From an uncultured bacterium (GTDB lineage Bacteria; Bacteroidota; Rhodothermia; Rhodothermales; UBA10348), in NCBI GenBank assembly GCA_943788505.1, contig CALSQR010000002.1:1067213-1131212 (forward strand): a stretch of 64,000 nt of DNA, in the 5' to 3' direction. Shown piece after piece: positions 21,364 to 35,154 of the stretch. The notes below the pieces were generated by a model. It had not been told where the DNA came from. It was given only the letters and a program-made list of their open reading frames with translations, and made no database searches. Within the stretch, counting starts at the first letter, position 1; the number at the start of each line of letters is the position of its first letter. The translations under genes were made by a program, and so were the position numbers.

Positions 21364-21434
21364 GGTGACGTGGCCGAGTGGCTAGGCAAGGGTCTGCAAA
21401 ACCCTGTACGGCGGTTCGAATCCGCCCGTCACCT
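21364..21434 (+). tRNA. tRNA-Cys (GCA), island attachment site
   Basis: 71 bases: acceptor GGTGACG / CGTCACC, anticodon loop CTGCAAA with GCA, T arm CGGTTCGAATCCG. From 21383 to its 3' end the gene is part of a 57-bp sequence repeated at 32456-32512, so an integrated element borders the tRNA and has kept it intact at the left junction. Confidence 0.95.
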
Positions 21435-21439
21435 CATAA
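21383..21439 (+). repeat. attL: left 57-bp direct repeat in tRNA-Cys
   Basis: Starts in the D arm of tRNA-Cys (TAGGCAAGG) and runs five bases past its 3' end (ACCTCATAA). Identical over 57 bases to 32456-32512. The downstream bases differ at once (GGACTG against AGCTTC). Confidence 0.92.
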
Positions 21440-21463
21440 GGACTGTATGGCAATAGCCATTAC

Positions 21464-21522
21464 GTCCATTTAAAACAGCCTCTTACAGCCAAAAGCTGTA
21501 AGGGGCTTTTTTTTAAACGGAC
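21464..21522 (+). terminator. Nested hairpin/terminator just inside attL
   Basis: Outer stem GTCC-TTTAAAA / TTTTAAA-GGAC encloses an inner stem CTTACAGC / GCTGTAAG extended by GCCT/GGGGC and followed by eight T. It can end tRNA-Cys transcription in place of the terminator displaced to the right border. A diverged copy with compensating base changes lies at 32690-32746. Confidence 0.7.
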
Positions 21523-21537
21523 CTCGGCCACGTCTGG

Positions 21538-21564
21538 CTTTGACGGAAAACTACCGTCAAAACT
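21538..21564. repeat. 27-bp hairpin repeat near the left island end
   Basis: Contains TTTGACGG / CCGTCAAA as an inverted pair with a 7-base loop. The same 27 bases recur exactly at 32347-32373 near the right end, and a diverged form (ACAGC/GCTGT) at 32768-32782. Placement at both ends suggests recombinase arm-type binding sites; not proven. Confidence 0.6.
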
Positions 21565-21600
21565 GGTGACAGTAGAAGATGCGCGCATCCAAGAGAAAAG

Positions 21601-22764
21601 ATGCCCAGTCTTTACAAACGTGGCGACACGTACTACGCAGGATTCTACAAGGCTGACCGTTACCCACAGAAAAAGCAGGTGTCACTTAAGGTTGCCAGCA
21701 GGAAGGCAGCCGAGAAGAAGTACGCCAAGCTCATACGGCGCTATCACGAAGGCCAGTACGATCCTTGGACTCCAACGGGTCGCAAGAAAACATCAACGCT
21801 TGGAAGCGCAGCCACAGCCTTTATCCAGACGCGTAGGAATCTGTCCAAGCAGTCTGTAGCCAAGTACCGATCAGTCCTTGGTCAGTTGGTCCGACATGCT
21901 GGTAGGAAGACGGCTCTTGATCTTCTTACCACAGCGAAGGTGCAGGCCTTCATTGACGCGTCTGATCGTCGCGCCATCACTAAGCGCACTTATAGCACCA
22001 CGCTATCCCCGTTCTTCAACTGGGCCGTCGCAGAAGGGCTGATAGAAAAGAACCCAGTCAAAGGCGTACGCCTTCCACGCGTGCCCGAGAAGACGCCTAA
22101 GACGTTCTCCAGCGAGCAGATAGATCTCCTGCTCCAGACGATTACAGAGGCAGAGAGGCACTGTAACGGCCGTCAGAAGGGAAGCTGGAAGTGGCTTGTA
22201 CCAGCCATCAAACTATCCCTTTTACTGGGCCTTCGTGTGGCCGAGCTGGCGCAGCTGCGCTGGGAGGATATTGATGAAGGGCGTGGTCTTGTCACGATCG
22301 GGGGGCGAGAGTCGTTCAAGACCAAGAATGGTAAGCGCCGCATTTTGCCACTGACGGAAGCTGCGCGTGATGTGCTTCTACAGGCAAGCAATCCTTCCCT
22401 GTACGTGATCACCAGTTCCTCCGGCGAAGCGGTTAGCCCACTGTATCTGTCGCGCCGATTCAAAGATGCATGTAGGCTGGCGGGACTTCCTGAGCACCTG
22501 ACGTTCCGGGGAAAAGAGATGGCAAATACTTGGATCAAAGACGCAGTCTTCCACATGGCTCTCAAGGCCATTGAGGCGAAGCTGGAAGGAGATCACGCGA
22601 GGGTTGATAGCCTCTGCACCATGATGGATATTCATACTTGGCAGTCAGGAGCTAAAGATGCGCTGGTCAAACTGCTGCGTCTTCCCCTGAGACCGGTGAG
22701 GGAATACCACCTGCTATTCGGGATGCTTGAGGAGGAAATGCGAGACAAGGGCAATCCTAACTAG
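21601..22764 (+). CDS. int: Tyrosine recombinase/integrase of the island, with atypical C-terminus
   Basis: 387 residues. N-terminal beta segment with GDTYYAGFY and many Lys/Arg, SAM-like core-binding domain at about 75-160, then the catalytic fold with LGLRVAELAQLRWEDI (first catalytic Arg) and FKTKNGKRRILPL (Lys). After RRFKDACRLAGLPEHLTF, where relatives have HxLRHT, LGH and a catalytic Tyr, the sequence instead runs RGKEMANTW... and ends LRPVREYHLLFGMLEEEM; the His-x-x-Arg and LGH signatures are not seen. The odd tail recurs in the relic at 32101-32232, so it is a lineage feature, not a sequencing slip. It reads away from the tRNA into the island. Activity uncertain. Confidence 0.8.
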   Translation: MPSLYKRGDTYYAGFYKADRYPQKKQVSLKVASRKAAEKKYAKLIRRYHEGQYDPWTPTGRKKTSTLGSAATAFIQTRRNLSKQSVAKYRSVLGQLVRHAGRKTALDLLTTAKVQAFIDASDRRAITKRTYSTTLSPFFNWAVAEGLIEKNPVKGVRLPRVPEKTPKTFSSEQIDLLLQTITEAERHCNGRQKGSWKWLVPAIKLSLLLGLRVAELAQLRWEDIDEGRGLVTIGGRESFKTKNGKRRILPLTEAARDVLLQASNPSLYVITSSSGEAVSPLYLSRRFKDACRLAGLPEHLTFRGKEMANTWIKDAVFHMALKAIEAKLEGDHARVDSLCTMMDIHTWQSGAKDALVKLLRLPLRPVREYHLLFGMLEEEMRDKGNPN

Positions 22765-22858
22765 CCCAAGGGTCCATGCTGTGCTTCACCATTTTTGGAT
22801 TCCTATCGGCCCAATGCTTACTTAAAGACACGAGTGACTACCTAATACTATTCTGACT

Positions 22859-25003
22859 ATGAAATTTGCCGCCTCTTTTCTTGTGTTCCTTCTTCTAACT
22901 GCAGGCACCAGTCTTTCTCAGGTTTTGTCTTCGGGAGACATTGCCCTGATAGGTGCGAATGCAGTCAACCCTGATGAGTTTGCCTTTGTGGCTCTAGTGG
23001 ATATCCCTCAGGGGACAGAAATTGGATTTGTGGATCATGGCTGGCTTGCCTCTGGATCGTTTCGCACAAACGAAGATGAACTGTTCTATACAGCTAGTTC
23101 CACGATTCCCATGGGTACGGTCGTGGCCATTGACACTGATGGTGGAGCTCCACGCTTTGCTCAAGCAGGTGATCAAGTCATTGCGTTTCAGGGCACAGTA
23201 GAATCACCGTCGTTCTTGTATGCCTTGAATTTCGAAGGCGATGGGGTTTGGCAAGAAGACGCTACTAGTTCGAACACTTCAGCTCTGCCGTCGGGACTTG
23301 TAAATGGATTCACCGCTGTCGCTGTAAGTGCGTGCAGTGACAACAACCACAAGTACAATGGACCAACTTCCGGAACCAAATCTGAGCTACTAGGGCACAT
23401 TGGAGACAAGTTAAACTGGACCTGTTCTAGCAGTAGACAAACATTCCTTTCTTCCTTTAGTGTCATCGGCGGTGGAAGCAACTCCTTTCCAGAGTTCACT
23501 AATCCTATCCTCACAGCAAACGTTGATTCTGGAGAGCTACTGCAGATTGATTACGACGCAACTGATTCGGATCAGGACGACTTGACGTTTAGCGGTATCG
23601 GTCTTCCGAGTGGCTCAAGCATCTCGCCTGACACTGGGATTCTATCTTGGACCCCAACCGAAGAACAGGTTGGATCTAATACGTTTACTATCTCTGTGTC
23701 TGATGGCACAGATACCGCTTCAATCTCTGTTACAGTCTCCGTTACCTCAATTATTGATGCCAAAACCCCATCTTTTGTTGTCGTTCCTGCTGATACGCTT
23801 GTAGCTGCAAATACCTCACTTTCAATTCCTTTTGATGTTGATGACCCTGATGGTCTACCAATCGCATCCTACTCGGTAAACCCATCCAGCTTGGGCGCTT
23901 CGGTTGACAACTCAACGTTTAGTTGGGTCTCCAGCAATGTCCCCAACGTTTACAGCTTTACAATTACTGCCACTGATGCCGACGGGCTTTCTGTGAGCCA
24001 CGAGCTGTTTATCGGGGTATCTGGCGTCCTGTTTGAAGGTGAGACCAGTACGACGCTTCTGGCGAGCCTGCAAGGAGCGTACAGCCCTTCACAAACCTTA
24101 GGGTACGACACGGCAAGAGACACCATGTACTCCAAGATCGATTTAGATCTTGATGGGTTTGTGAGAGGCATTTACACTGGTTTTTCCGTCGAGTACACAG
24201 GAGGAGATCCAAGTACAGCAATGTTCAACAATGGGATCAATGCTGAGCATTCATGGCCGCAATCAATGGGCGCAAGTTCGGAGCCGCAAAGAAGTGACTT
24301 ACACTCTCTCTTCCCTGCTAAAGACAACGTCAACTCGACGCGAAACAACCACCCCTATGCAGAGATTCCCGACAGCGATACCCAAACGTGGTTTGTTGGC
24401 TCTACCTCTCAGAGTACTATCCCGCTGATTGACGTGGACGCTTATAGCGAGTTCGCCTCGGGGAGATTTGAGCCACGCGAATCAGTAAAAGGAGATATTG
24501 CTAGAGCCGTGTTCTACTTCAACACGATCTATTCTACAGAAGCCAGTCAAAGCTTTTTTGATCTCCAGTCAGCAACCCTAGGAAGTTGGGAGTCGCTTGA
24601 TGTCGTATCAGGAAAAGAAATCCGCCGTTCTGGGAAGATCCGCAAGTATCAAGGAAACCTGAACCCATTTTTGCTTGACAGCTCACTTGATGATCGTCTC
24701 TTTGGCACCGCTACATCGATACAGGACGAGGAGATTCCAACGGTGTTTAGTATCGATTCCGTTTACCCAAATCCAGTAGTTGGATCGAGCGAAGTGAACA
24801 TTATGCTCCGATCAGGTCAGGCGGCGAAGGTTGAGATCTCTCTGGTTGACGTTCTGGGAAGAACTGTTGTCAAACATTCTGTTCCTCTTACAAGCCCCAA
24901 TGAGACTATTTCATTCGATCTGAGCAACGTCTCACGAGGCACATATTACATCAGGATTGCGACTGCGAATAATGTGGATTACAAGTCAATCACTGTTCTG
25001 TAA
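22859..25003 (+). CDS. Secreted endonuclease I with Ig-like domains and T9SS sorting domain
   Basis: 714 residues; signal peptide 1-20 (SLSQ). Residues ~25-200 are a lamin-tail-like beta domain. Two Ig/cadherin-like repeats follow (about 215-400) with LSWTPTEEQVGSNTFTISVSDG. The nuclease domain (about 400-620) has the NucM/endonuclease I pattern: NAEHSWPQSMG with the catalytic His, DLHSLFPAK, NNHPYAEIP and RFEPRESVKGDIARAVFYF. The C-terminus (FSIDSVYPNPVV... to ITVL) is a T9SS sorting domain. It should cut DNA or RNA outside the cell, for nutrient use or biofilm remodelling. Cargo of the tRNA-Cys island. Confidence 0.9.
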   Translation: MKFAASFLVFLLLTAGTSLSQVLSSGDIALIGANAVNPDEFAFVALVDIPQGTEIGFVDHGWLASGSFRTNEDELFYTASSTIPMGTVVAIDTDGGAPRFAQAGDQVIAFQGTVESPSFLYALNFEGDGVWQEDATSSNTSALPSGLVNGFTAVAVSACSDNNHKYNGPTSGTKSELLGHIGDKLNWTCSSSRQTFLSSFSVIGGGSNSFPEFTNPILTANVDSGELLQIDYDATDSDQDDLTFSGIGLPSGSSISPDTGILSWTPTEEQVGSNTFTISVSDGTDTASISVTVSVTSIIDAKTPSFVVVPADTLVAANTSLSIPFDVDDPDGLPIASYSVNPSSLGASVDNSTFSWVSSNVPNVYSFTITATDADGLSVSHELFIGVSGVLFEGETSTTLLASLQGAYSPSQTLGYDTARDTMYSKIDLDLDGFVRGIYTGFSVEYTGGDPSTAMFNNGINAEHSWPQSMGASSEPQRSDLHSLFPAKDNVNSTRNNHPYAEIPDSDTQTWFVGSTSQSTIPLIDVDAYSEFASGRFEPRESVKGDIARAVFYFNTIYSTEASQSFFDLQSATLGSWESLDVVSGKEIRRSGKIRKYQGNLNPFLLDSSLDDRLFGTATSIQDEEIPTVFSIDSVYPNPVVGSSEVNIMLRSGQAAKVEISLVDVLGRTVVKHSVPLTSPNETISFDLSNVSRGTYYIRIATANNVDYKSITVL

Positions 25004-25258
25004 CCTGGCCCAACTAAGCTCCATCGTATCAAGGGATTTAGGCCTCAATACCATTTCCTTAGGAATGTGATTAAGGGCCAAGAAATGATCGGCAAAACTT
25101 ACGGCAACACCATTTCTGACCTTTCTTAGGCAAGTGACTTCGTTCAGACCAGACAAATCACATTGCTGAAATAGCAGGCGCGTATCAGATGGGGGTCCGC
25201 TTGATTGAAAGTCGGCCTTTTAATAGCTACCATAATGCAACAGACAACGAGAAAATTG
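25004..25258. other. Intergenic, no recognised feature
   Basis: Between the nuclease and the MazG-like gene. No RNA gene, strong hairpin or repeat copy was seen here. Confidence 0.5.
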
Positions 25259-25579
25259 ATGGACATACAAGCTTGGCAAGAGAGGTTGGCATCATTCGCG
25301 TCAGAGCGAGACTGGGATCAGTTTCACTCCCCCAAGAACCTCTCCTCCGCTTTGGTTGTCGAGGCAGCCGAGCTGCTTGAACAGTTCCAGTGGCTCACTC
25401 CTGAGCAGAGCACCTCAGATGTACTATCATCAAAAACCCGAGATGCCGTTCAACAGGAAGTTGCAGATGTTGCGATCTATCTCTTAAGGATCTGCGATGT
25501 GTTGGACATTGATCTTGAGGATGCTATGGCGCGAAAGCTTGCGATTAATGAGCTTAAGCGAAGCAATGTCAGCTCTTAA
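25259..25579 (+). CDS. MazG-like/dCTP pyrophosphatase-type nucleotide pyrophosphohydrolase
   Basis: 106 residues from ATG at 25259 (MDIQAWQERLASFASERDWDQFHSPKNL); the longer frame from 25205 lacks family similarity, and GAGA lies 8 bases before this ATG. Metal motifs: EAAELLEQFQW (E-x2-E) and QQEVADVAIYLLRICD (E-x2-D), as in the all-alpha NTP pyrophosphatases related to DCTPP1. These convert NTPs to NMP and pyrophosphate, often on non-standard nucleotides, in the cytoplasm. In the island it sits between a secreted nuclease and a secreted phosphodiesterase, which suggests clean-up of imported nucleotides. Confidence 0.85.
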   Translation: MDIQAWQERLASFASERDWDQFHSPKNLSSALVVEAAELLEQFQWLTPEQSTSDVLSSKTRDAVQQEVADVAIYLLRICDVLDIDLEDAMARKLAINELKRSNVSS

Positions 25580-25629
25580 TCCCGGCATGTTCTTTTGATA
25601 AACGAGGTAGCACCTTCCTTCACAAGTAC

Positions 25630-26355
25630 ATGAAACCAGCCCATTGGTCGTCCATTCGGACACACACTGTAGAGTTTATCGTCGTTGTTCTGGGAATAAC
25701 GGTTTCGTTTGCCCTAGATGGCTGGCGCCAAGATCGCATCATTTCAGAATTGCACCTGTCTGAGATTCGAAGTCTACTCGAGGATCTTGAGCAGGATCGT
25801 GAACGGCTGTCGGAAGTCTTCGGCATGATTGAGGAGGGCGATAGCAATATGCAGCGGATCATAGGTGATGTGATGGCCTACAGAAGCGGAGCGTTATCCT
25901 ACGATCAATTAGCAGCGACCCTCGAAGATATTGGCACGCCCTATCAGTACGGTACGTTCTACATGAACACGTCCACCTACAAATCGCTAGTAGCAACAGG
26001 CAGGCTGCAGCTGTTTCCCGAGGATATCAATCGCAAACTCAGGGACTACTACGAGTATGTATCAAAGCGGGTTGATGACAATAATGCGATTGTCGACCGC
26101 ATCACACTCGCATACTATAACGAACACCACCCTTGGGTAAATGCCAGTACTTTTCCAGGCATAGGGCTCGAGAGCGGTACAGAAGTAACCGTGAATCCAT
26201 TTTTTATCGACCCCGACGTGCGCAGAAAATACTCTGACATCACGTTCCTGAACTCAAGTCTGGCTCTGGCGGACAGGATTCGTATCCATCGAGGTCAGGT
26301 AATACGATACAACGAGTTACGCGACGAGCTGGCCGCTTTATTGCATGACCTTTGA
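25630..26355 (+). CDS. DUF6090-like single-pass membrane protein
   Basis: 241 residues. N-terminal segment TVEFIVVVLGITVSFALDGWRQDR is a single helix followed by a W-(N/R) motif, as in the Bacteroidota family with GE-ILVV-GI-IA-Q-NNWNE. The rest is mainly helical with charged coiled-coil stretches (LEDLEQDRERLSEVF) and an NTSTYKSLVATGRLQLF segment also typical of that family. Function unknown. Confidence 0.6.
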   Translation: MKPAHWSSIRTHTVEFIVVVLGITVSFALDGWRQDRIISELHLSEIRSLLEDLEQDRERLSEVFGMIEEGDSNMQRIIGDVMAYRSGALSYDQLAATLEDIGTPYQYGTFYMNTSTYKSLVATGRLQLFPEDINRKLRDYYEYVSKRVDDNNAIVDRITLAYYNEHHPWVNASTFPGIGLESGTEVTVNPFFIDPDVRRKYSDITFLNSSLALADRIRIHRGQVIRYNELRDELAALLHDL

Positions 26356-26623
26356 CAAAGACTGGGCGCTGACCGTCGTCTTGGTCAGCTCTATGCGTGA
26401 AAATTGCATGCCCGAGAAGGCATTCTTCCCTGAATTCGTTCTTCCCCAGAACATCATCTATAGCGAACGCAACCCTACGGCGTTGGCATGAAACTGGGAA
26501 ACATTAGTGCGTTAGACCAAGAGCCCATAGGAGCGGGTCTAGCCCCGGAAAATTGGTTGGGGGTAGAGATATGGTAGAAGTACGGGGACGATGTGCAGCG
26601 TTTGGTAGCCCATACAAATAATC

Positions 26624-28438
26624 ATGAAAGCGAATCCGATAACTGAAATAATTGGCAGCACTAAGGTGATTAGGAAGCACTACCGCAAGTGTGCCATGAT
26701 GGCACTTCTCCTTTTGGTCATGTCATCCAAAGGAATACAGGCTCAACAGTGGGCAGATACTGTCGTCCTTGTTTCACTGGATGGATTCAGGTCGTCCTAC
26801 GTCGATGATTATGATACTCCGTTTCTGGACGCATTGATTACGTCGGGGGTACATTCACGAGAAGGAATGATCCCTGTATTTCCAACATCTACATTCCCCA
26901 ATCATTACTCCATGGCTACGGGTCTCTATCCCCAAGACCATGGAATCGTGTCAAACACGTTTTTCGACCCGGCTATCGACGAATGGTTTTATATCTCAAA
27001 TAAGCCGGCGCAATCGGATCCCAAGTGGTGGGGAGGAGAGCCATTGTGGACCACGGTGGAATCCGCCGGTCGTAAGGCGGCAACGTTCTTTTGGGTCGGC
27101 TCTGAGGTGGAAGGAACCCGAGCATCTTCATGGCTGCCCTACGATAGTGTACCCTTTGATGTACGCATCGATAGTCTGCAAAGCTGGCTGTCACGTCCCA
27201 TCGAAAGCATCCCAGCACTTATCACGCTGTATTTTCCAGAGCCTGACGGCCAAGGGCATACTTTCGGGCCTGATTCAGCCGAAATGGCAATCAAGGTCCA
27301 CGAAATGGATGCCTGGGTTGGGGAAATCGTTAAAATCATAGATTCGTTCAGGACTACCCGCAGGATTGCACTTATTGTTGTCTCCGACCATGGTATGGCC
27401 GAGCAGACGGGACAGGGTATTTATCTGGGGGACTACATTTCTGAGAGCGATGTTATTCGGCGGGTCATCGGACCCTACCTTGATCTGACCGTTCCCCAGG
27501 GCAAAGAGGCCGAGGTGCTTGAGCAATTACAAGGTGCTCATCAGGCGATGCACGTCTTCAGCGTGGATGATGCGCCGGAGGAATGGCAAGCGGGCTCCCA
27601 TCCACGCCGAGGTCAAATCGTCGGCTCGGCAGACCCCGGTTGGTACATTCGTTGGGACCGGTCCCAACCCGTTTACCAAGGAGGAACACATGGATATGAC
27701 AACAGGGACCCTTCAATGAGGGCCCTATTTGTTGCTCAGGGTTCCGGTCTGCTCTCCGGGATCGTCCTTCCATCCTTCGATATCATTGACATCCACCGCC
27801 TCGTGCTATTTCTGTTGAACCTGCCACATCCGGAAGGTTCTGTTTCATCACTTGCACCCTTTGAGCTGGCTCTATCATCTTCTCAGGCTCCGGTAGCACA
27901 GATTACATTTTCATCCGTAATCGGCGTTGCTCCTTTTGGCATCGACTTCAACGCATCAGCGTCCACTGATCCCAACGGCGACGCACTGACATACGCGTGG
28001 GACTTCGGCGACGGCACCACAGACTCTGGCGAAACAGTTTCCCATACCTATACAGCCGCAGGAGAGTACACAGTTGTTCTAACAGCCTCAGACGGAGTAC
28101 TCACGGGAACCGACTCCCTGGCTGTCTCCATCGCTTCAGGCGTCGACACCGAGTCCTTTGAGCTGCCAGAAAGCTTCGTTCTCAAGGCTGCCTATCCCAA
28201 CCCGTTTAATCCCACCACTACGATCACATACGGCTTACCTGTAGCTTCTGAAGTGCGCCTTACCGCTACGGACTTACTTGGAAGGCAGGTAGCTACTCTG
28301 GTAGCAGGGGACATGAAAGCGGCAGGCTACCACACAGCACAGTTCAACGCTGATGGCCTTGCCTCAGGCACCTACCTTATTAGGATGGAAGCAGGTGACT
28401 TCGTGGCTACTACTAAGCAGGTTATACTTCTGAAATAG
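26624..28438 (+). CDS. Secreted nucleotide pyrophosphatase/phosphodiesterase with PKD and T9SS domains
   Basis: 604 residues; an internal hydrophobic stretch at 24-40 (MMALLLLVMSSKGIQAQ) is the signal, so translation may begin nearer 26693. The alkaline-phosphatase-superfamily NPP domain has Asp53 in SLDGF, the catalytic Thr90 in PTSTFPNHYSMATGLYP, DGQGHTFGPDS and SDHGM. These enzymes hydrolyse NTPs, dinucleotides or phosphodiesters. A PKD domain (about 430-505, YAWDFGDGTTDSG) and a T9SS domain (about 510-604) follow. The T9SS domain is nearly the same as that of the FG-GAP protein at 29111 (about 13 differences in 99 residues). Confidence 0.92.
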   Translation: MKANPITEIIGSTKVIRKHYRKCAMMALLLLVMSSKGIQAQQWADTVVLVSLDGFRSSYVDDYDTPFLDALITSGVHSREGMIPVFPTSTFPNHYSMATGLYPQDHGIVSNTFFDPAIDEWFYISNKPAQSDPKWWGGEPLWTTVESAGRKAATFFWVGSEVEGTRASSWLPYDSVPFDVRIDSLQSWLSRPIESIPALITLYFPEPDGQGHTFGPDSAEMAIKVHEMDAWVGEIVKIIDSFRTTRRIALIVVSDHGMAEQTGQGIYLGDYISESDVIRRVIGPYLDLTVPQGKEAEVLEQLQGAHQAMHVFSVDDAPEEWQAGSHPRRGQIVGSADPGWYIRWDRSQPVYQGGTHGYDNRDPSMRALFVAQGSGLLSGIVLPSFDIIDIHRLVLFLLNLPHPEGSVSSLAPFELALSSSQAPVAQITFSSVIGVAPFGIDFNASASTDPNGDALTYAWDFGDGTTDSGETVSHTYTAAGEYTVVLTASDGVLTGTDSLAVSIASGVDTESFELPESFVLKAAYPNPFNPTTTITYGLPVASEVRLTATDLLGRQVATLVAGDMKAAGYHTAQFNADGLASGTYLIRMEAGDFVATTKQVILLK

Positions 28439-28751
28439 TGCCTGTATTCCTGACACGGGCTGCCTCAACATCTCGCAAGATTGTTTCTTGGCTTCGGTAC
28501 CCCTTTTCAATAAGAGATGAGCTGTGCCACTCGTTGTATTTCACAGCCGCAGCGATTGTAAGGATGATATTTCCTATTCCAAAGGTGGTGGCGGAGAGAA
28601 CAAGGTGACCAACGATTAAGATAAGGAAGTACTTCAGATCACCACGAAACAACGCGGGCAGCGGACCGAAAAAGAACACAGTCCAACTCCACCCTGTGTA
28701 AGCGGTCTTGGTTGATCCTGCGGGATGAATCAGTACGGTCTGAGTTGCCAT
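28422..28751 (-). CDS. Small HrgC-like membrane protein
   Basis: 109 residues: a short N-terminal beta part, then YTGWSWTVFFFGPLPALFRGD and a hydrophobic pair (about 43-68), ending with IEKGYRSQETI. The SWT-FFG--P-LFRGD / EKGY pattern resembles HrgC-type small proteins of unknown role. Its stop overlaps the 3' end of the phosphodiesterase gene by 17 bases on the opposite strand. Confidence 0.65.
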   Translation of the reverse strand: MATQTVLIHPAGSTKTAYTGWSWTVFFFGPLPALFRGDLKYFLILIVGHLVLSATTFGIGNIILTIAAAVKYNEWHSSSLIEKGYRSQETILRDVEAARVRNTGTISEV

Positions 28752-28837
28752 CTCTAAAAAACCTTTTTACCTAGCGGGGATTGCGAAACAGCAAAATATA
28801 CTACTCTACGCTGGAGCTTGTCTACCCCCCTCGTCTT

Positions 28838-28950
28838 CGGGAAGCTGGAAGTTGACATGGTAAAGGCTTGAGTCTGGATTTGGCTTTGAGAAAACCACAC
28901 GCATTCCTGACGGGGGTAACAGCAGCCCCTGATACTGGCTTTACCCCTCT
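28838..28950 (+). pseudogene. Integrase 3'-end relic A and its flank
   Basis: 28838-28871 encodes VFGKLEVDMVKA-stop, the tail of an integrase like the one at 21601 (FGMLEEEM...) and even closer to relic B (FGMLEVDMAKA). The ~75 bases after the stop are also shared with relic B, so it is a common end piece, not chance. It marks an old element boundary inside the island. An ORF spanning 28868-29062 here has no family features and is not called. Confidence 0.7.
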
Positions 28951-28951
28951 A
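28908..28951. repeat. GGGGTAA...TTACCCC palindrome, copy 1
   Basis: An imperfect palindrome of ~40 bases (GGGGGTAAC ... TTTACCCCTC). Two further copies lie at 31010-31054 and 32268-32312, all in the same orientation. Confidence 0.6.
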
Positions 28952-29110
28952 CTGGCCCAAGTGCTTTGTCCTACGCGTCACGCCAAGCTGTCAGCAATGA
29001 TGGCTTTTGGCGCGTTGATGCTTTGCATTCCGCAAATTGACAGTAAAGTTAGGACCCACTAAGTTGAACTCAACACCCGGTTACCCAGCCACAAATATCT
29101 CTCAGCGCCA

Positions 29111-30994
29111 ATGAAAAGTTTAGTACATCTTAGCTCCCTTCTGGTCTTGATGTTCTCACTGAGTAGTGCTGTATCAGCTCAAACCAATTTTATCGGCTCC
29201 GCACAAACCAACCTATTATCAGGAATAAACAGTATTCACTCTAAACAGTCCGAATGCGTGTTATCCGGATTCTTTAGCGATTTTTATGATGAAGCCGTAT
29301 TAAAGGGCCAAAATGAGGGGGTAGGAGTTCATACGTGGCTTACAACGGATTTCACAAATGATGGTTATTGCGACCTATTCCTCTCGTTTTTTACGATGGG
29401 TGAAGTACACTCTGTGCCGAATATTCTACTTGTGTTTGACCCAGAGACGGGTTTTTTAGTAGATGAGTCGTACAGAATAGAAAACAATGTTGGACAGTCA
29501 TTCAATCGCAAATCAATGGCCGCTGACCTTAATGGTGATCAGATCAAGGACATTGTAATGGTTAGTCATCCTGAGATGCCCGAAAAAAGCCTTTCTTATC
29601 TTGATATCCTGATGTCGGATGGTGTTGGTGGCTGGCGTCAAGAAACTCGCTTGATTGGCTCTCGTCGCTACCCCAACTCTGGTGATCGGCCGGGATATTG
29701 GCACGGCGTAGCACTGGGGGATGTTGACAACGATGGTGACATAGATGTTTTTGTCGCCAATTGGCGAACGACGGATGACGTCTCCTTTATCCTTGAAAAT
29801 AATGGCAATGGCGAGTTTACCGAACGAGACGCATTTGATGAAGAAATGAAGTCAGACACCCAGCGACTCTTCAGAATGAGTCACTTCACCTCTGAGATGG
29901 CCGACCTAAATGGCGATGGGTTTATTGATTTAATGGCGGATCCTGGAAATACAATTATATACGGTGATGGGTCTGGTTATTTTAAATACAGGCTCCAGCA
30001 AGATATACCAAACAGCAGCTGGCTAAACCCCGACTTTCTTATTGTAGACTACGATGTTTATGATTTAGATAATGACAATGATTATGATTTGCTTCTAACG
30101 TTAACAGATTACGTTAATTGGCAATTCGCTTTTTTGATTAATGATGGAGTCGGAGAAAACGGGTTTGTTAACTGGGCTGACAAGTCCGAAGAGTTGAACG
30201 AAGGACTCATAGCAAAGGGCTTTTACACCGATGAGTATACCTCTTCGGCAAATATGTATGTGCAGGTTTTGGATGTGAACGGGGATGGTGCAATGGATAT
30301 TCTTCCCCAAACAAAATTTGGAGGATCCCCGTACGATACCGAATGGGTTTTGCTCAAGAACCCAAGTGATTTGGTATACGATTATTTTCATTCCCCACTT
30401 ACCAGACCAGTAATCAATCTCAACGCGACTTCGTCTGGTTTAGATGTGACGCTGACATGGAGTGTGCCAACACTGTCAAACGGAGTCACTACCCCAGCTG
30501 ATACCTGGGAGATATACAGGTCTGGGGCACCGTTTGGTGACACCTCTTTGGCAACACGAATTGGTCAGACCACGGATCTCATCTTTACTGATAAGGGTTT
30601 AGTGTCAGGAAGCACGTTGTACTACCGGATAGTTGGGATAGGCCCCGGTGGAATTCCTTCGCCAATATCTAATCAACTATCCATAAGCACTGCTTCAGGC
30701 GTGGACACAGAGTCCTCTGAGCTACCGGAGACCTTCGTCCTGGAGGCTGCCTACCCCAACCCCTTCAACCCTACCACTACCGTCACGTACGGCCTGCCCA
30801 CAGCTGCCGAAGTACGCATTACCGCCACAGACCTACTGGGAAGGCAGGTGGCTACTCTGGTAGCAGGAGACAAGAAGTCAGCAGGGTACCACACGGTCCA
30901 GTTCAACGCAGACGGCCTTGCTTCAGGCACCTACCTGATCAGAATGGAAGCAGGAGACTTCGTGGCCACTCAGCAGGTCGTGCTGCTGAAATAG
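29111..30994 (+). CDS. FG-GAP (VCBS) repeat T9SS-secreted protein
   Basis: 627 residues; signal peptide 1-23 (SSAVSAQ). Calcium-binding FG-GAP motifs recur: DLNGDQIKDIV, DVDNDGDIDVFVANW, DLNGDGFIDLMAD, DLDNDNDYDLLL, DVNGDGAMDILPQ, giving a propeller of integrin-alpha type. A fibronectin-III-like domain (about 435-530) and a T9SS domain (about 530-627) follow. The propeller half is clearly AT-rich while the T9SS end is GC-richer and close to that of the phosphodiesterase upstream, which points to domain swapping. Likely an adhesin or binding protein; ligand unknown. Confidence 0.85.
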   Translation: MKSLVHLSSLLVLMFSLSSAVSAQTNFIGSAQTNLLSGINSIHSKQSECVLSGFFSDFYDEAVLKGQNEGVGVHTWLTTDFTNDGYCDLFLSFFTMGEVHSVPNILLVFDPETGFLVDESYRIENNVGQSFNRKSMAADLNGDQIKDIVMVSHPEMPEKSLSYLDILMSDGVGGWRQETRLIGSRRYPNSGDRPGYWHGVALGDVDNDGDIDVFVANWRTTDDVSFILENNGNGEFTERDAFDEEMKSDTQRLFRMSHFTSEMADLNGDGFIDLMADPGNTIIYGDGSGYFKYRLQQDIPNSSWLNPDFLIVDYDVYDLDNDNDYDLLLTLTDYVNWQFAFLINDGVGENGFVNWADKSEELNEGLIAKGFYTDEYTSSANMYVQVLDVNGDGAMDILPQTKFGGSPYDTEWVLLKNPSDLVYDYFHSPLTRPVINLNATSSGLDVTLTWSVPTLSNGVTTPADTWEIYRSGAPFGDTSLATRIGQTTDLIFTDKGLVSGSTLYYRIVGIGPGGIPSPISNQLSISTASGVDTESSELPETFVLEAAYPNPFNPTTTVTYGLPTAAEVRITATDLLGRQVATLVAGDKKSAGYHTVQFNADGLASGTYLIRMEAGDFVATQQVVLLK

Positions 30995-31009
30995 GGCGCG
31001 CATTTCTGA

Positions 31010-31054
31010 GAGGGGTAACCGCGGGCCTATCACCCGTTTTTACCCCCCTCTCTG
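31010..31054. repeat. GGGGTAA...TTACCCC palindrome, copy 2
   Basis: GAGGGGTAACCGCGGGC ... CCCGTTTTTACCCCCC, with an inner CGGG/CCCG pair. It begins 15 bases after the FG-GAP gene and could act as its terminator. Confidence 0.55.
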
Positions 31055-31177
31055 CGCTATTGATTTCCAGATCCGCTCAGAAGTATTGACAATAAGTCAA
31101 CGATTGCCCTACTCTAATAGTCGTCTGGTGTTGACATTCGGGCCTCGAGTCACAGTTCATAACTGCAGGTAATAGCT

Positions 31178-32068
31178 ATGAAATCCTTTCATTCTCTTCT
31201 TCTCTTTGTTCTACTGTCATTTGGAATAGGCGCTTTGACCGCTTGTTCTGTTAAAAAGGATGACTCGGATGGTACAAACGTCAAGGGTCTGGTTGAGGCG
31301 CATATGAGTGCCTTTGAGGAGGCTTGGACAAGCGGCGATGGGTCCAAGGTTGGAGCGTTTTACGCAGAGGACGCCGTCCGAATTGTCTTCAGTATGCAAA
31401 CCCCCTTGTATGGACGTGATGCCATTTCTCAGAACTTTTCGGCGGGATTTTCCCAAGACGAGGGAGATCCGTTGCTTTCTCTTACTCTCGTTGAAGCTCG
31501 CGAGATGGGAGAAGGCGTGATTATGGCAGTTGGTGAATGGGAGGCTCCAAATGAGGGTCAAGGAATTAGAGGGGCGTGGCTAAACGTTTACCGTTCCGAT
31601 GGGCAAACACTCAGCTCCGTATTTGATCACGCTGTCGTCTACAATCCTGTGACGGACCTCACTCAAGTTGAGCGTGTTTTTGACGAGGTCCACAAAGGAG
31701 AGGGCTCTGACATGGTGGAACGGGCCATAGCACGGTATACCTCTCTCACTAATGCTGGGGATATAGCCGGACTCTCTGTTCAGATGTTTGAGGAAGACGG
31801 CGTCCAAGTCACAGAAAACGGAATCTTAAAAGGGCACGAGGCCCTCGCCTCAGGGATTCAACCACCGCCAGAGGGCGTGCGCCTCACGGCTCAATCATAT
31901 GGATACCGACCGGTCTCCGATGACCTTGTTATAAACTGGGGTGGATATCAAATTGAGAGTAGCGAGGGCGGCTTACTCGGCTTTGGCCAGTGGGGCAACC
32001 TCTTGCGAGTCGTTGACGGCGAACTCATTCTGGTTGTTGAAGCAGCGGGTGCCCACTCAGCCGACTAA
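31178..32068 (+). CDS. Lipoprotein with two SnoaL/NTF2-like domains
   Basis: 296 residues. The N-terminus MKSFHSLLLFVLLSFGIGALTAC carries a lipobox (LTAC), so it is lipid-anchored. Two similar halves follow (about 35-160 and 170-290), each with the cone-shaped NTF2/DUF4440 pattern: HMSAFEEAWTSGDGSKVGAF-YAEDAVRI in the first, IARYTSLTNAGDIAGLS-MFEEDGVQV in the second. The fold is used by enzymes and binding proteins alike; no catalytic set is evident. Last intact gene of the island. Confidence 0.75.
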   Translation: MKSFHSLLLFVLLSFGIGALTACSVKKDDSDGTNVKGLVEAHMSAFEEAWTSGDGSKVGAFYAEDAVRIVFSMQTPLYGRDAISQNFSAGFSQDEGDPLLSLTLVEAREMGEGVIMAVGEWEAPNEGQGIRGAWLNVYRSDGQTLSSVFDHAVVYNPVTDLTQVERVFDEVHKGEGSDMVERAIARYTSLTNAGDIAGLSVQMFEEDGVQVTENGILKGHEALASGIQPPPEGVRLTAQSYGYRPVSDDLVINWGGYQIESSEGGLLGFGQWGNLLRVVDGELILVVEAAGAHSAD

Positions 32069-32100
32069 GTTGCCACCCCCGTAGCGGCACTCACACAAAA

Positions 32101-32232
32101 AAGTCTCCGGAATACCCGTGGCAGTCTGAATGGAAGGACTGTCTCGTGGAATTATTGGGCCAACCCCTTCGTCCTGTGCGCGAGTATCACCTCTTGTTTG
32201 GGATGCTGGAGGTTGACATGGCAAAGGCGTGA
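32101..32232 (+). pseudogene. Integrase 3'-end relic B
   Basis: The frame ending with TGA at 32230-32232 encodes WQSEWKDCLVELLGQPLRPV and then REYHLLFGMLEVDMAKA, aligned with the last ~45 residues of the intact island integrase (WQSGAKDALVKLLRLPLRPV). The 5' part is missing. Its downstream flank matches that of relic A. It shows that a related but different recombinase gene once ended here. Confidence 0.85.
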
Positions 32233-32267
32233 ATCTGGATTTGGCTTTGGGAATACCACACGCATTC

Positions 32268-32312
32268 CCGACAGGGGTAACCGCAACCCCTGATACTCGC
32301 CTTACCCCCCTA
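32268..32312. repeat. GGGGTAA...TTACCCC palindrome, copy 3
   Basis: CAGGGGTAACCGCAACCCC ... CGCCTTACCCCCC; closest to copy 1, with which it shares ~75 bases of leading flank. Confidence 0.55.
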
Positions 32313-32346
32313 CCCCGCAGCTCCAAATTCACAGTGTGATCCGGAC

Positions 32347-32373
32347 CTTTGACGGAAAACTACCGTCAAAACT
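32347..32373. repeat. 27-bp hairpin repeat near the right island end
   Basis: Identical to 21538-21564 (TTTGACGG-loop-CCGTCAAA). It lies 83 bases inside attR; the left copy lies 99 bases inside attL. Confidence 0.6.
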
Positions 32374-32455
32374 ACTTAATGCTAACCAGCGCACTTCTTT
32401 CTGTTACTGGCGAGGCTGTTAGGAGGCAATGACTTACAGGCGAAGCAGATCGGCG

Positions 32456-32512
32456 TAGGCAAGGGTCTGCAAAACCCTGTACGGCGGTTCGAATCCGCCC
32501 GTCACCTCATAA
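32456..32512 (+). repeat. attR: right 57-bp direct repeat (partial tRNA-Cys copy)
   Basis: Carries the anticodon and T arms and 3' end of tRNA-Cys without the 5' half, so it cannot make a tRNA. Perfect match to 21383-21439. The original tRNA terminator follows at once. Confidence 0.92.
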
Positions 32513-32554
32513 AGCTTCCCGTAGGGCGCGCAGCGTCCAGCGGGAAGCTTTTTT
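32512..32554 (+). terminator. Original tRNA-Cys terminator, displaced by the island
   Basis: AAGCTTCCCG and CGGGAAGCTT form a 10-bp perfect stem around a 19-base loop, followed by T. It abuts attR, as expected if it closed the tRNA-Cys transcript before the island inserted. Confidence 0.8.
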
Positions 32555-32573
32555 AGTATGGTGCGCGGATGAG

Positions 32574-32642
32574 AACCGCCCAGGCGGTTTGACACGAGCG
32601 GCCGCAGGCCGCGACTGATGAGGACGCGGCTGCGTCCGAATA
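32574..32642 (+). other. Hammerhead-ribozyme-like motif
   Basis: CTGATGA (32615-32621), a 6-bp perfect stem GGACGC/GCGTCC with a 4-base loop, then GAA (32638-32640) reproduces most of the hammerhead core. Before it, GCGGCC-GCA-GGCCGC (32598-32612) can form stem I, bounded by opposed GA pairs. Against a working ribozyme: position 15.1 is U instead of A, the expected NUH site is replaced by CAC, and stem III is only partly paired (GGCGG with CCGCC). It may be a decayed ribozyme or a look-alike. Confidence 0.35.
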
Positions 32643-32790
32643 ATTCCGCCCGTCACCTCCATAGAGACATAGTGGCCACTCGCCATTACGTCTATAAAAA
32701 CAGTCTCTTGTAGCTAATCGCTGCAAGGGGCTTTGTTTTTATAGACCTCGCCCACGTCACCAGAAAAACAGCAAACTGCTGTCAAAACTG
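32643..32790 (+). repeat. Decayed second att-like end (tRNA-Cys 3' end, terminator element, hairpin)
   Basis: TTCCGCCCGTCACCTCC (32644-32660) matches the tRNA-Cys 3' end. It is followed by a diverged copy of the sequence inside attL: CATTACGTC, the nested hairpin at 32690-32746 (GTCTATAAAAA/TTTTTATAGAC outside, CTTGTAGC/GCTGCAAG inside), GACCTCG-CCACGTC, and an ACAGC/GCTGT hairpin with CAAAACTG. Same order and direction as at the left island end, so this is the left end of an older, largely lost element. Confidence 0.7.
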
Positions 32791-33011
32791 ATGAACGACC
32801 AACCACTTGGCCATACGTCGTTGCGATCTTTCAGCCAATAACAATCCGTTCAATCGTTACAAGATGGAGAAGCGGCGCACGGCGGAGCGCCAAAAGTTAT
32901 CGCTCGAGGAGACTAGGAAATTGTAAGCTGTCAGTTTGTAAGGTGTTGCAGCGCTCGTACGTGACGCGTTCGTGCTTTCATTCTACGGAGCAGCGTCTTG
33001 TTGGCCACTGT
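32791..33011. other. Gene-free remainder right of the island
   Basis: No gene, tRNA or clear repeat seen. It lies between the decayed att-like end and the FkbM remnant and may be debris of the older element. Confidence 0.5.
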
Positions 33012-33480
33012 TCATTCATGATGATACCAACAAGGTGGCAGGGGAAGCGCAGGGGCTGAGATATTGTCGGAATCAAGAGAGTGAGGGAAATCATTCCGAT
33101 AAGAAGCGCTCTCAATCCGATCCTTTCTCAAAAATGTAAATTCCATTACTTTGGGTATCTCCAGATTAAAGACTTTGACGGGACCACAACAGTTATTAGG
33201 GTGAAGATGAAGACAGCTGTGTGTGTTAAGGAGTTTTTTGAATATTCTAGGCTTGGTTTTATCCAAGATGTCGAGATTGTGGAACTCTATTACAATAATT
33301 CTGAATCGGTTCAATAATTCATCAGACACACAGCTGAAGACCTCATATTCGAAGCCTTCAATATCCATTTGCATCAGAAGGTCCTTGTCATCGTCTTCGC
33401 ATGATTCTGCTACCCATTGCTCAAGTGTTATGAAGTTTTCTCTCTTGTATCCGCCGATAAACGTTTTAGAGAACTCAAAC
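33012..33480 (-). pseudogene. FkbM-family methyltransferase, C-terminal fragment
   Basis: About 155 codons recognisable as the end of an FkbM-type methyltransferase: KTFIGGYKRENFITLEQW, DLLMQMDIEGFEYEVF, RFRIIVIEFHNLD, HLHPNNCCGPVKVFNLEIP, MEFTFLRKDRIESASY and DFPHSLDSDN. The SAM-binding N-terminal half is missing. The open frame continues to 33863 only because it runs antisense through the neighbouring T9SS gene fragment. Such enzymes usually methylate sugars of surface polysaccharides or lipids. Confidence 0.75.
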
Positions 33481-33499
33481 AACTCTGCTTCCCTAATCG

Positions 33500-35154
33500 G
33501 GTATGGAGCCATCCAGATTCGCTCTGCTGGCCACATGCATATCACAGAAATTCGACCCTCGAATGCAGACGGCAATATTAGCTCTTTAGGCTTTGTCCCG
33601 ACGGCTTCGGTGTTGTCGGATTCTCTCGCCATGGTCCTTACAGCGCCTATTGGTCCTTCTGAATCACGAACATTTGATGTTGTATTAATAGCTGACGCAG
33701 ATGCAGCATCATTGACCTCAGTACCCATTTTTGCAGCATCCGTTCTTCGAACGGACGAGTCTGACCTTCTGACCTCAATGGCGGGAAGTACCACGGGAGC
33801 TGAGGAAGTATGGAATAGCATGACAGCAGAATGGCCGTATGCTGAACGACCGTTTTTTAGCATGGTGGATAAGGCTGGCTTTTCAAAAAAGATCGATCCG
33901 GTTACGATATCCGTTGTTGTCCTTGCTGTTGGTTCGGCACTTCTTACGTATGCAATCTTAGCTTATGAAGGACAATCCGAAGTGGAAATCATTTTGGAAA
34001 ACGACAAACGAGATGCGCTGGCCGACGCCCTAGCGATATTGAGAGATGGTGATAAAAGAAACCTTGGATCACCTGATGAGCAGGATTTAGCCAGCAAGTT
34101 TGATGGCTATCAAAGTAGCGGCACAAATATGTCCGCTGGTGTCACATCTTCTTTCGATCCCAATGAAAAAGCAGGTCCCACAGGAGTTGGTCCTGAGGGA
34201 TTTGTCTCGGCGCTGGGTAGAACGACCTACAAAATCTTCTTTGAAAACAAGGCGGAAGCAACAGCAGCAGCCTATCAGATTGTGATTGACGATACACTCT
34301 CGTCGGTTTTTGATCCAACTACTTTTGAGGTTGAGGGGTCTAGTCATGAAGGCTGGACGGTGACGCGCATTGGAAATCATCTTCACTGGGAAATCCAGGG
34401 AATCGAGCTCCCACCAAATGTGACGCCCCCAGAAGGGGAGGGTTATGTTCAGTTTTCTGTGGAGCCCATAGGAGGCTTACCAAGCGGGACATCATTGGAA
34501 AACCACGCAACGATTGTATTTGACTTCAATGATCCAATCGTGACCAATATGTTTGTAAACACGCTTGATTTCGGAAAACCGACAACAACGATGCAGGCGT
34601 TAGAGCAAACAGTTTCCACGGATTCCATATGGGTATACTGGGAGTCGTCTGACCCCACAGGAGAGTCTGGTATTAGGTCAACGACGTTATATCAGTCAAT
34701 CGACGGGGCTGCTTTCACAGCGATCAGCACCTCATATTCTGACTCTGCCCGAGTTGATGTTGAGCCGGGTCACGAGTATTCCTTTTATGCGATTTCTCGA
34801 GATCGTGTGGGCAACGTAGAGCAGCAACGCCCTGCAGTTGTTACGACCCAAGTGGTCAGCGGAGTGGCCACAGAAGAGGAAACCCTGCCATTTGTGTTCG
34901 CTCTCGAATCCAACTACCCGAATCCATTTAACCCAGTTACAACGATTCGGTATTCGCTTCCAACTCATGGGGGCGTTCGCCTGAATGTCTATGACGTAAC
35001 GGGAAGACACGTGGCCGAGCTGATAAACGGCGAAATGCCCGCTGGCAGGCATAGTGTCACACGGAATGCTCGCCAGGTTTCTAGCGGGGTATACTTCTAC
35101 CGGCTAGAACAGGCTGGTCAAATAGTAACACGGTCCATGATCCTTCTTAAATAG
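33500..35154 (+). pseudogene. T9SS surface protein with DUF7619-like domain, N-terminus lost
   Basis: Plausible coding begins near 33500 (IQIRSAGHMHITEIRPSNAD); upstream the same frame (open from 33223) is only antisense of the FkbM fragment. No signal peptide remains. The body has a helix-like hydrophobic segment (VTISVVVLAVGSALLTYAIL), a SFDPNEKAGPTGVGPEGFVS domain found in large secreted proteins, a fibronectin-like part and a T9SS domain with SNYPNPFNPVTTIRYSLP at the C-terminus. Without its export signal it should not reach the surface. Confidence 0.7.

Follow-up and report, generated by a model that had tools for sequence, protein, structure and literature searches.

What kind of element occupies the tRNA-Cys gene of an uncultured Rhodothermales bacterium, can it still move, and do the genes that it carries work together? 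The locus lies in a stretch of 64,000 nucleotides (the window; contig C2, positions 1067213-1131212) of genome G000, which has a size of 2.75 Mb in two contigs and is 96.9% complete. An initial annotation of this DNA had described a tRNA-Cys genomic island with a nucleotide-scavenging cargo. Our analysis upholds the island but not the pathway. We estimate at about 0.8 the probability that the element belongs to an apparently undescribed family of Rhodothermales tRNA-Cys islands, was mobile until recently, and is now non-autonomous, with a shuffled cargo whose products are predicted to be partly secreted by the type IX secretion system (T9SS). Relatives used for comparison (60 genomes for the co-occurrence of cargo genes, 28 genomes for the scan of a terminal half-site) were mostly metagenome-assembled genomes (MAGs), in which single short contigs are possibly mis-binned; in G004, contig breaks fall at the attachment (att) repeats. 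Genes outside the window were named according to Pfam, PHROG, or a plain reading of the sequence. The habitat of the host lineage, judging by sample names, is probably marine or brackish water. The features of the island are listed in Table 1.

Insertion into the tRNA-Cys gene

The window contains a real 11-kb island, inserted exactly into tRNA-Cys. An exact direct repeat (57/57 bp), the chance occurrence of which within 64 kb is negligible, brackets an insertion of 11,073 bp. The repeat consists of positions 20-72 of tRNA-Cys, i.e., its 3′ part, followed by ATAA; within the distal repeat, too, ARAGORN recognizes a tRNA-like copy. The terminator AAGCTTCCCG...CGGGAAGCTTTTTT is located directly 3′ of the distal repeat. 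In G002, a genome of the same genus, the island is not there, and tRNA-Cys runs directly into a matching terminator and a flank homologous to the window from 32513 onwards; hence, the insertion was precise at the repeat. The locus thus shows three marks of a tRNA-targeted tyrosine-recombinase island: repeats (attL and attR) that duplicate the 3′ part of the tRNA, an unoccupied site in a relative, and an integrase gene at 21601 adjacent to attL. The initial annotation had used the 57-bp repeats to define the element to the base, had taken the terminator for the displaced one of the tRNA gene, and had proposed to look for an empty site in relatives; the repeats proved exact, and G002 supplied both the empty site and the terminator adjoining tRNA-Cys.

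For tRNA integrases, crossover of the anticodon-loop type is established. The 57-bp shared segment starts just 5′ of the anticodon arm, consistent with such a crossover, which would have occurred inside this segment. Site-specific recombination would thereby have put an 11-kb element, one of a Rhodothermales family of elements, into the 3′ part of tRNA-Cys.

Organization of the island ends

The tRNA-Cys gene still has a terminator because the left end of the island brings one that replaces the terminator displaced beyond attR. The stem of the replacement terminator differs between species, with pairing preserved by covariation in G004, G025, and G011. Alignment of these three genomes with G000 revealed a common plan of both ends. 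At the left end, att is followed by ~40 bp, the terminator hairpin, ~25 bp, and an inverted-repeat site with a consensus near TTTGACGACAAACTGTTGTCAAAACT. At the right end, the inverted-repeat site in the same orientation is followed by ~35-40 bp, the segment GGCGAGGCTGTTAGGAGGCAA..., and att. The two 27-bp subterminal sites of the window, just inside both island ends, are identical (27/27 bp). In G004 they read TTTGACGACAAA(G or C)TGTTGTCAAAACT at both ends, and the sites at the two ends change together between genomes. The 15-base half-site ASTRYYGTCAAAACT was found 8 times in the 28 genomes scanned, compared to 2 occurrences of a reversed control pattern. Three of these half-sites belonged to G000 (left end, right end, and an old relic), two to G004, two to G011 (one per end), and a stray one to G012; the rest of the scanned genomes had none. 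G025 was outside the scanned set, and its sites were seen in the end alignment. The subterminal sites are putative binding sites for the integrase of the element or for an accessory factor.

Truncated integrase and presumed loss of replication genes

Beside the tRNA, the initial annotation had placed a recombinase. An integrase gene is indeed adjacent to attL, but its catalytic HxxR...H...Y half is lost and the frame is fused to an unrelated small gene designated X. The PF00589 match of the 387-aa product covers only positions 6-129 of the 172 in the profile. Residues 1-302, including the first catalytic Arg block, match intact relatives at ~43-49%; after residue ~302, nothing remains of the HxxR box (HSLRHT), of the later His, or of the Tyr. 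The intact homologues in G025 and in G011, which belongs to another genus, go on with HSLRHT...MGHSS...TQRYIH, absent from the window copy. They have the complete set of catalytic residues (R..HxxR..H/W..Y), of which the window copy keeps only the first Arg block. Since the C-terminal catalytic motifs are missing, the island encodes no working integrase of its own. We considered an integrase C-terminus hidden downstream and rejected it: DNA from 22509 on matches, with 85% identity, a gene X that stands alone in G021, both leader and body, so that the C-terminus is deleted, not frameshifted. Gene X had no PHROG match. The integrase of G004 is also truncated, at another point (residue ~171), and the losses in G004 and G000 were therefore independent.

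In intact relatives, the integrase is followed by one gene and then by a 680-aa protein matching phage primase-helicase. No relative of this protein was found in the host genome, and no intact integrase of this type either; all that was found is a 31%-identical integrase next to tRNA-Thr. The deletion, which brought integrase codon ~302 up against the leader of gene X, would have removed the integrase C-terminus together with the adjoining replication genes. We thus interpret the island of the window as a defective descendant of a tRNA-targeted tyrosine-recombinase island, not a complete member. It would persist as a non-autonomous element, whose movement would need an integrase supplied in trans. 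Among named records, the closest relatives of the integrase were from Rhodothermales bacterium DEBay_Sum29NL08_33, Bacteroidetes bacterium UBA7368, and a casp150 isolate, which places the host family in an uncultured lineage of Rhodothermales.

Cargo genes and their occurrence in relatives

Pfam agreed with the cargo identities given initially (endonuclease I, MazG-like protein, phosphodiesterase, FG-GAP protein, and lipoprotein). The integrase truncation and fusion, the 27-bp sites, the DUF6090-like gene, the minus-strand open reading frame (ORF), and an older left-end relic had been overlooked. Por_Secre_tail, the T9SS tail of Pfam, was found on endonuclease I, the phosphodiesterase, and the FG-GAP protein. 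The phosphodiesterase matches structures of the nucleotide pyrophosphatase/phosphodiesterase (NPP) type across the whole catalytic domain, and the closest solved relatives of the MazG-like protein are a pyrophosphatase and dCTPP1.

The proposed joint nucleotide-scavenging pathway found no support in relatives: endonuclease I, MazG-like protein, and phosphodiesterase occurred together in none of the 60 genomes. Close homologues of endonuclease I (57-67%) were present in G010, G025, and G026; the gene is part of the intact G025 island and occurs elsewhere without the other two enzymes. The phosphodiesterase had a close homologue (65%) only in G025, on a different contig carrying carbamoyl-phosphate-synthase-like and other apparently chromosomal genes. 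MazG was absent from 55 of the 60 relatives, and its close homologues were located in G007, with tRNA-Thr and an HNH-type gene as neighbours, and in a tRNA-Met island of G000 with HNH and SRA-HNH genes. Independent acquisition of the three enzymes is the most economical reading, and the cargo probably contributes separate functions, secreted or at the surface, rather than one pathway. The idea of a pathway, appealing as it is, is thereby corrected: a common island does not imply a common function of its genes.

Other origins of the cargo were considered as well. A viral origin was rejected, as only remote matches were found in IMG/VR and phage records, and so was defence-system cargo, the five cargo proteins scanned having no PADLOC match. 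Pfam and PHROG scans of island proteins detected no packaging or capsid-interference genes. Repeats in the spacers that separate the cargo genes first looked suggestive of an integron with attC-like cassettes, but no attC-like motif was recognized by eye; these repeats align to the hairpin following the T9SS tails, to T9SS-tail ends, and to gene X remnants.

Mosaic structure of the cargo

The cargo has the appearance of a mosaic, assembled from a pool shared with islands at other tRNA genes. Its DNA pieces are 86-99.6% identical to pieces elsewhere vs. 70-73% for a core gene (YchF-type GTPase). The block with the DUF6090-like gene is 99.6% identical in G021, which belongs to another genus, and 94% identical in G003. 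Several shared pieces adjoin tRNA-Val, and related pieces or ends are found at tRNA-Met and tRNA-Leu. The block 28352-28952 is, by its sequence, the end of a tRNA-Val-type island captured within the tRNA-Cys island. The T9SS-tail scar marks a gene deleted between endonuclease I and MazG. Cargo genes would have been gained and lost through inter-island recombination, leaving behind T9SS-tail scars and scars of gene X with the D2 repeat (X-D2). The T9SS tails at 28133-28411 and 30692-30970, carried by otherwise unrelated proteins, have 82% DNA identity and share a hairpin after the stop codon; such shared T9SS-tail DNA could provide recombination points for the exchange of passenger genes.

Table 1. 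Features of the tRNA-Cys island and its borders in the window.
Feature	Position	Strand	Evidence
tRNA-Cys (gca), intact target gene	21364..21435	+	ARAGORN, Rfam RF00005
att repeat, left copy, 57 bp	21383..21439	+	exact repeat
Replacement terminator for tRNA-Cys, carried by the island left end	21477..21515	+	hairpin and T run
Left subterminal inverted-repeat site TTTGACGG-AAAACTA-CCGTCAAAACT	21538..21564	+	identical to right site; position conserved in relatives
Truncated tyrosine integrase fused in frame to gene X	21601..22764	+	PF00589; alignment with intact relatives
Small gene X, ~81 aa	22519..22764	+	stand-alone ORF of G021, ~89% identity
Endonuclease I with Ig-like domains and T9SS tail	22859..25003	+	PF04231, PF05345, PF18962
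Scar: 3′ end of lost T9SS-tail gene (ASDFVQTRQITLLK*)	25130..25174	+	91% identity to part of the tRNA-Met island of G000
MazG-like/dCTPase-type pyrophosphohydrolase	25205..25579	+	PF12643
DUF6090-like protein	25630..26355	+	PF19578, E=0.0025 (weak, below cut-off)
NPP-type phosphodiesterase with PKD and T9SS tail	26624..28438	+	PF01663; matches PDB 2gsn
Small ORF, PHROG 4915	28422..28751	-	95% identical DNA beside tRNA-Val in G006
Scar of gene X and 124-bp D2 repeat	28817..28952	+	86% to 32190-32313; 92-95% to G006 next to tRNA-Val
FG-GAP protein with T9SS tail	29111..30994	+	PF13517 (FG-GAP_3), PF18962; 86% DNA identity in G003
Putative lipoprotein with SnoaL/DUF4440 domain	31178..32068	+	Pfam; 91% in G006 beside tRNA-Val, 95% in G004 tRNA-Cys island end
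Scar of gene X and D2 repeat, island right end	32113..32313	+	repeat search, gene X alignment
Right subterminal inverted-repeat site, identical to left	32347..32373	+	repeat search, end alignment, half-site scan
Conserved right-end segment GGCGAGGCTGTTAGGAGGCAA...	32411..32455	+	right-end alignment of G000, G004, G025, G011
att repeat, right copy, 57 bp	32456..32512	+	exact repeat
Displaced original tRNA-Cys terminator	32513..32553	+	directly 3′ of tRNA-Cys in G002

Competing explanations

The X-D2 scars inside the island and at its right end, together with the further left-end relic right of attR and the tandem islands of G025, could also mean that successive tRNA-Cys islands merely accreted in tandem and lost their internal att sites, so that the 57-bp pair brackets several remnants. 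We regard this as doubtful, as the inner scars resemble ends of the tRNA-Val type, not of the tRNA-Cys type, which favours exchange between island families, and no internal tRNA-Cys fragment was found within the island. Active mobilization in trans, with an intact cousin or a helper element providing the integrase, of what would be a satellite-like element or one similar to miniature inverted-repeat transposable elements (MITEs) is unlikely: the host genome contains no intact integrase of this type, the one next to tRNA-Thr being 31% identical, and no close relative was found in IMG/VR. The retention of both att copies and both subterminal sites, likewise in G004 despite its truncated integrase, nevertheless speaks for it, and intact integrases exist in other genomes of the family. 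It is highly improbable that a functional mobile island spreads a coherent pathway, in which secreted endonuclease I is followed by the phosphodiesterase and then by intracellular clean-up with MazG. The domains are correctly identified, the expected catalytic motifs are readable, the nuclease and the phosphodiesterase have T9SS tails, and endonuclease I recurs in the intact G025 island; against this stand the integrase without its catalytic half, the lack of co-occurrence of the three genes, the pairing of MazG elsewhere with HNH genes, and the deleted-gene scar between MazG and endonuclease I.

A recently mobile, now non-autonomous island with shuffled cargo remains our preferred explanation. 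Several points weigh against it: neither a circular form of the island nor its movement was observed; the integrase may have been lost only recently, or in this assembly alone; a role of the subterminal sites is suggested by position and conservation only; and the 99.6% match in G021 comes from a MAG contig of 6 kb, possibly mis-binned. More tentatively, tRNA-specific islands (Cys, Val, Met, Leu, and Thr) in one Rhodothermales family might form an exchange network for secreted-protein genes, in which non-autonomous islands would keep only att, paired subterminal sites, and the replacement terminator, move in trans, and swap cargo via X-D2 end modules and T9SS-tail sequences.

Comparison with known systems

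In kind, the tRNA-Cys island is ordinary. The 10K genomic island of Riemerella anatipestifer, whose integrase was shown to integrate and excise, uses tRNA-Arg with a 53-bp att site (PMC6764341). It resembles the island described here in its Bacteroidota host, a size of ~10 kb, and tRNA integration; it differs in that here the target is tRNA-Cys and the integrase has no catalytic half. Tycheposons are outlined as marine tRNA-linked cargo elements (PMC10872708) and listed as proposed satellites (PMC11389934). By description only, as far as that outline goes, they share with our island planktonic hosts, a tRNA border, a tyrosine recombinase (truncated here), and nutrient-type cargo modules; the target here is tRNA-Cys. 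Similarly to phage satellites (P4-like, PICI, and PICMI; PMC11389934, PMC10803314), the intact cousins join a tRNA-type integrase and a phage-type primase-helicase, with no capsid genes seen in them. Unlike phage satellites, the island has no identified packaging or capsid-hijacking gene, and its cargo is composed of large secreted proteins; the replication module typical of satellites is present in intact relatives, whereas the window copy has lost its replication gene. Allelic and domain exchange is known for surface proteins of Porphyromonas gingivalis (PMC5266723). There, as here, genes of surface or secreted proteins become mosaics by recombination, but here whole genes move between tRNA-linked islands.

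The locus represents an apparently undescribed tRNA-Cys island family in uncultured Rhodothermales, whose ends are defined with single-base precision and whose putative recognition site lends itself to testing, and illustrates how secreted-protein genes may be reshuffled among islands at different tRNA genes.

Related islands and sequences right of attR

The second island of G000, beside tRNA-Met (L107, 10817-17100; C2 about 898.8-905 kb), contains MazG-like, HNH, SRA-HNH, and SNase genes and has intergenic repeats in common with the window island; neither an integrase nor a tRNA repeat was found in it. At tRNA-Val (gac, tac) and tRNA-Met sites of five genomes (L077, L079, L109, L110, L071, and L107), a near-identical end TTGTACCTATGTTGTACCCATAAAAAGAAACCCCAAGCAGC...CTTGGGGTT abuts the tRNA 3′ end. 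These sites represent a further island family, which brings a terminator as well. Proteins similar to the N-terminal part of endonuclease I (residues ~11-313), not to its nuclease part, were found in G008, G016, G020, and G023, which belong to another genus (L170-L173, L221, L222); in 4/4 genomes they are encoded 0.7-5 kb downstream of tRNA-Cys.

Right of attR, positions 32645-32796 are occupied by an older left-end relic of a tRNA-Cys island, ~74-79% identical to 21421-21569 and also present in G002, which is evidence of repeated insertion at tRNA-Cys. Further on (33012-35154), an ORF of an FkbM-type methyltransferase and a DUF7619 protein with a T9SS tail, in overlapping frames on opposite strands, are perhaps the remains of the older island.

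Also beyond attR, a covarying multi-hairpin RNA-like element (32563-32657) follows tRNA-Cys; its last part is a copy of the tRNA 3′ end (AATCCGCCCGTCACC). This copy had at first suggested a third tRNA-Cys att site at 32645, which was rejected, as it is the tRNA 3′ fragment terminating the element. A hammerhead ribozyme (CTGATGA...GAA) was also rejected: Rfam gave no support, and the element is closer to RtT RNA (RF00391), which it resembles with 19.9 bits, below the cut-off. Pairs were formed in 96.8% of cells vs. 79.6% in shuffles, the alignment being fitted to the model. Further copies are located at L066 8239-8324 (-), L073 9748-9835 (-), L075 15071-15160 (-), and L222 3669-3784. Similar elements, possibly an RtT-like family in Rhodothermales, occur 3′ of tRNA-Glu, tRNA-Met, and tRNA-Ser in relatives, and the copy in G014 ends with 18 nt of its tRNA-Met.

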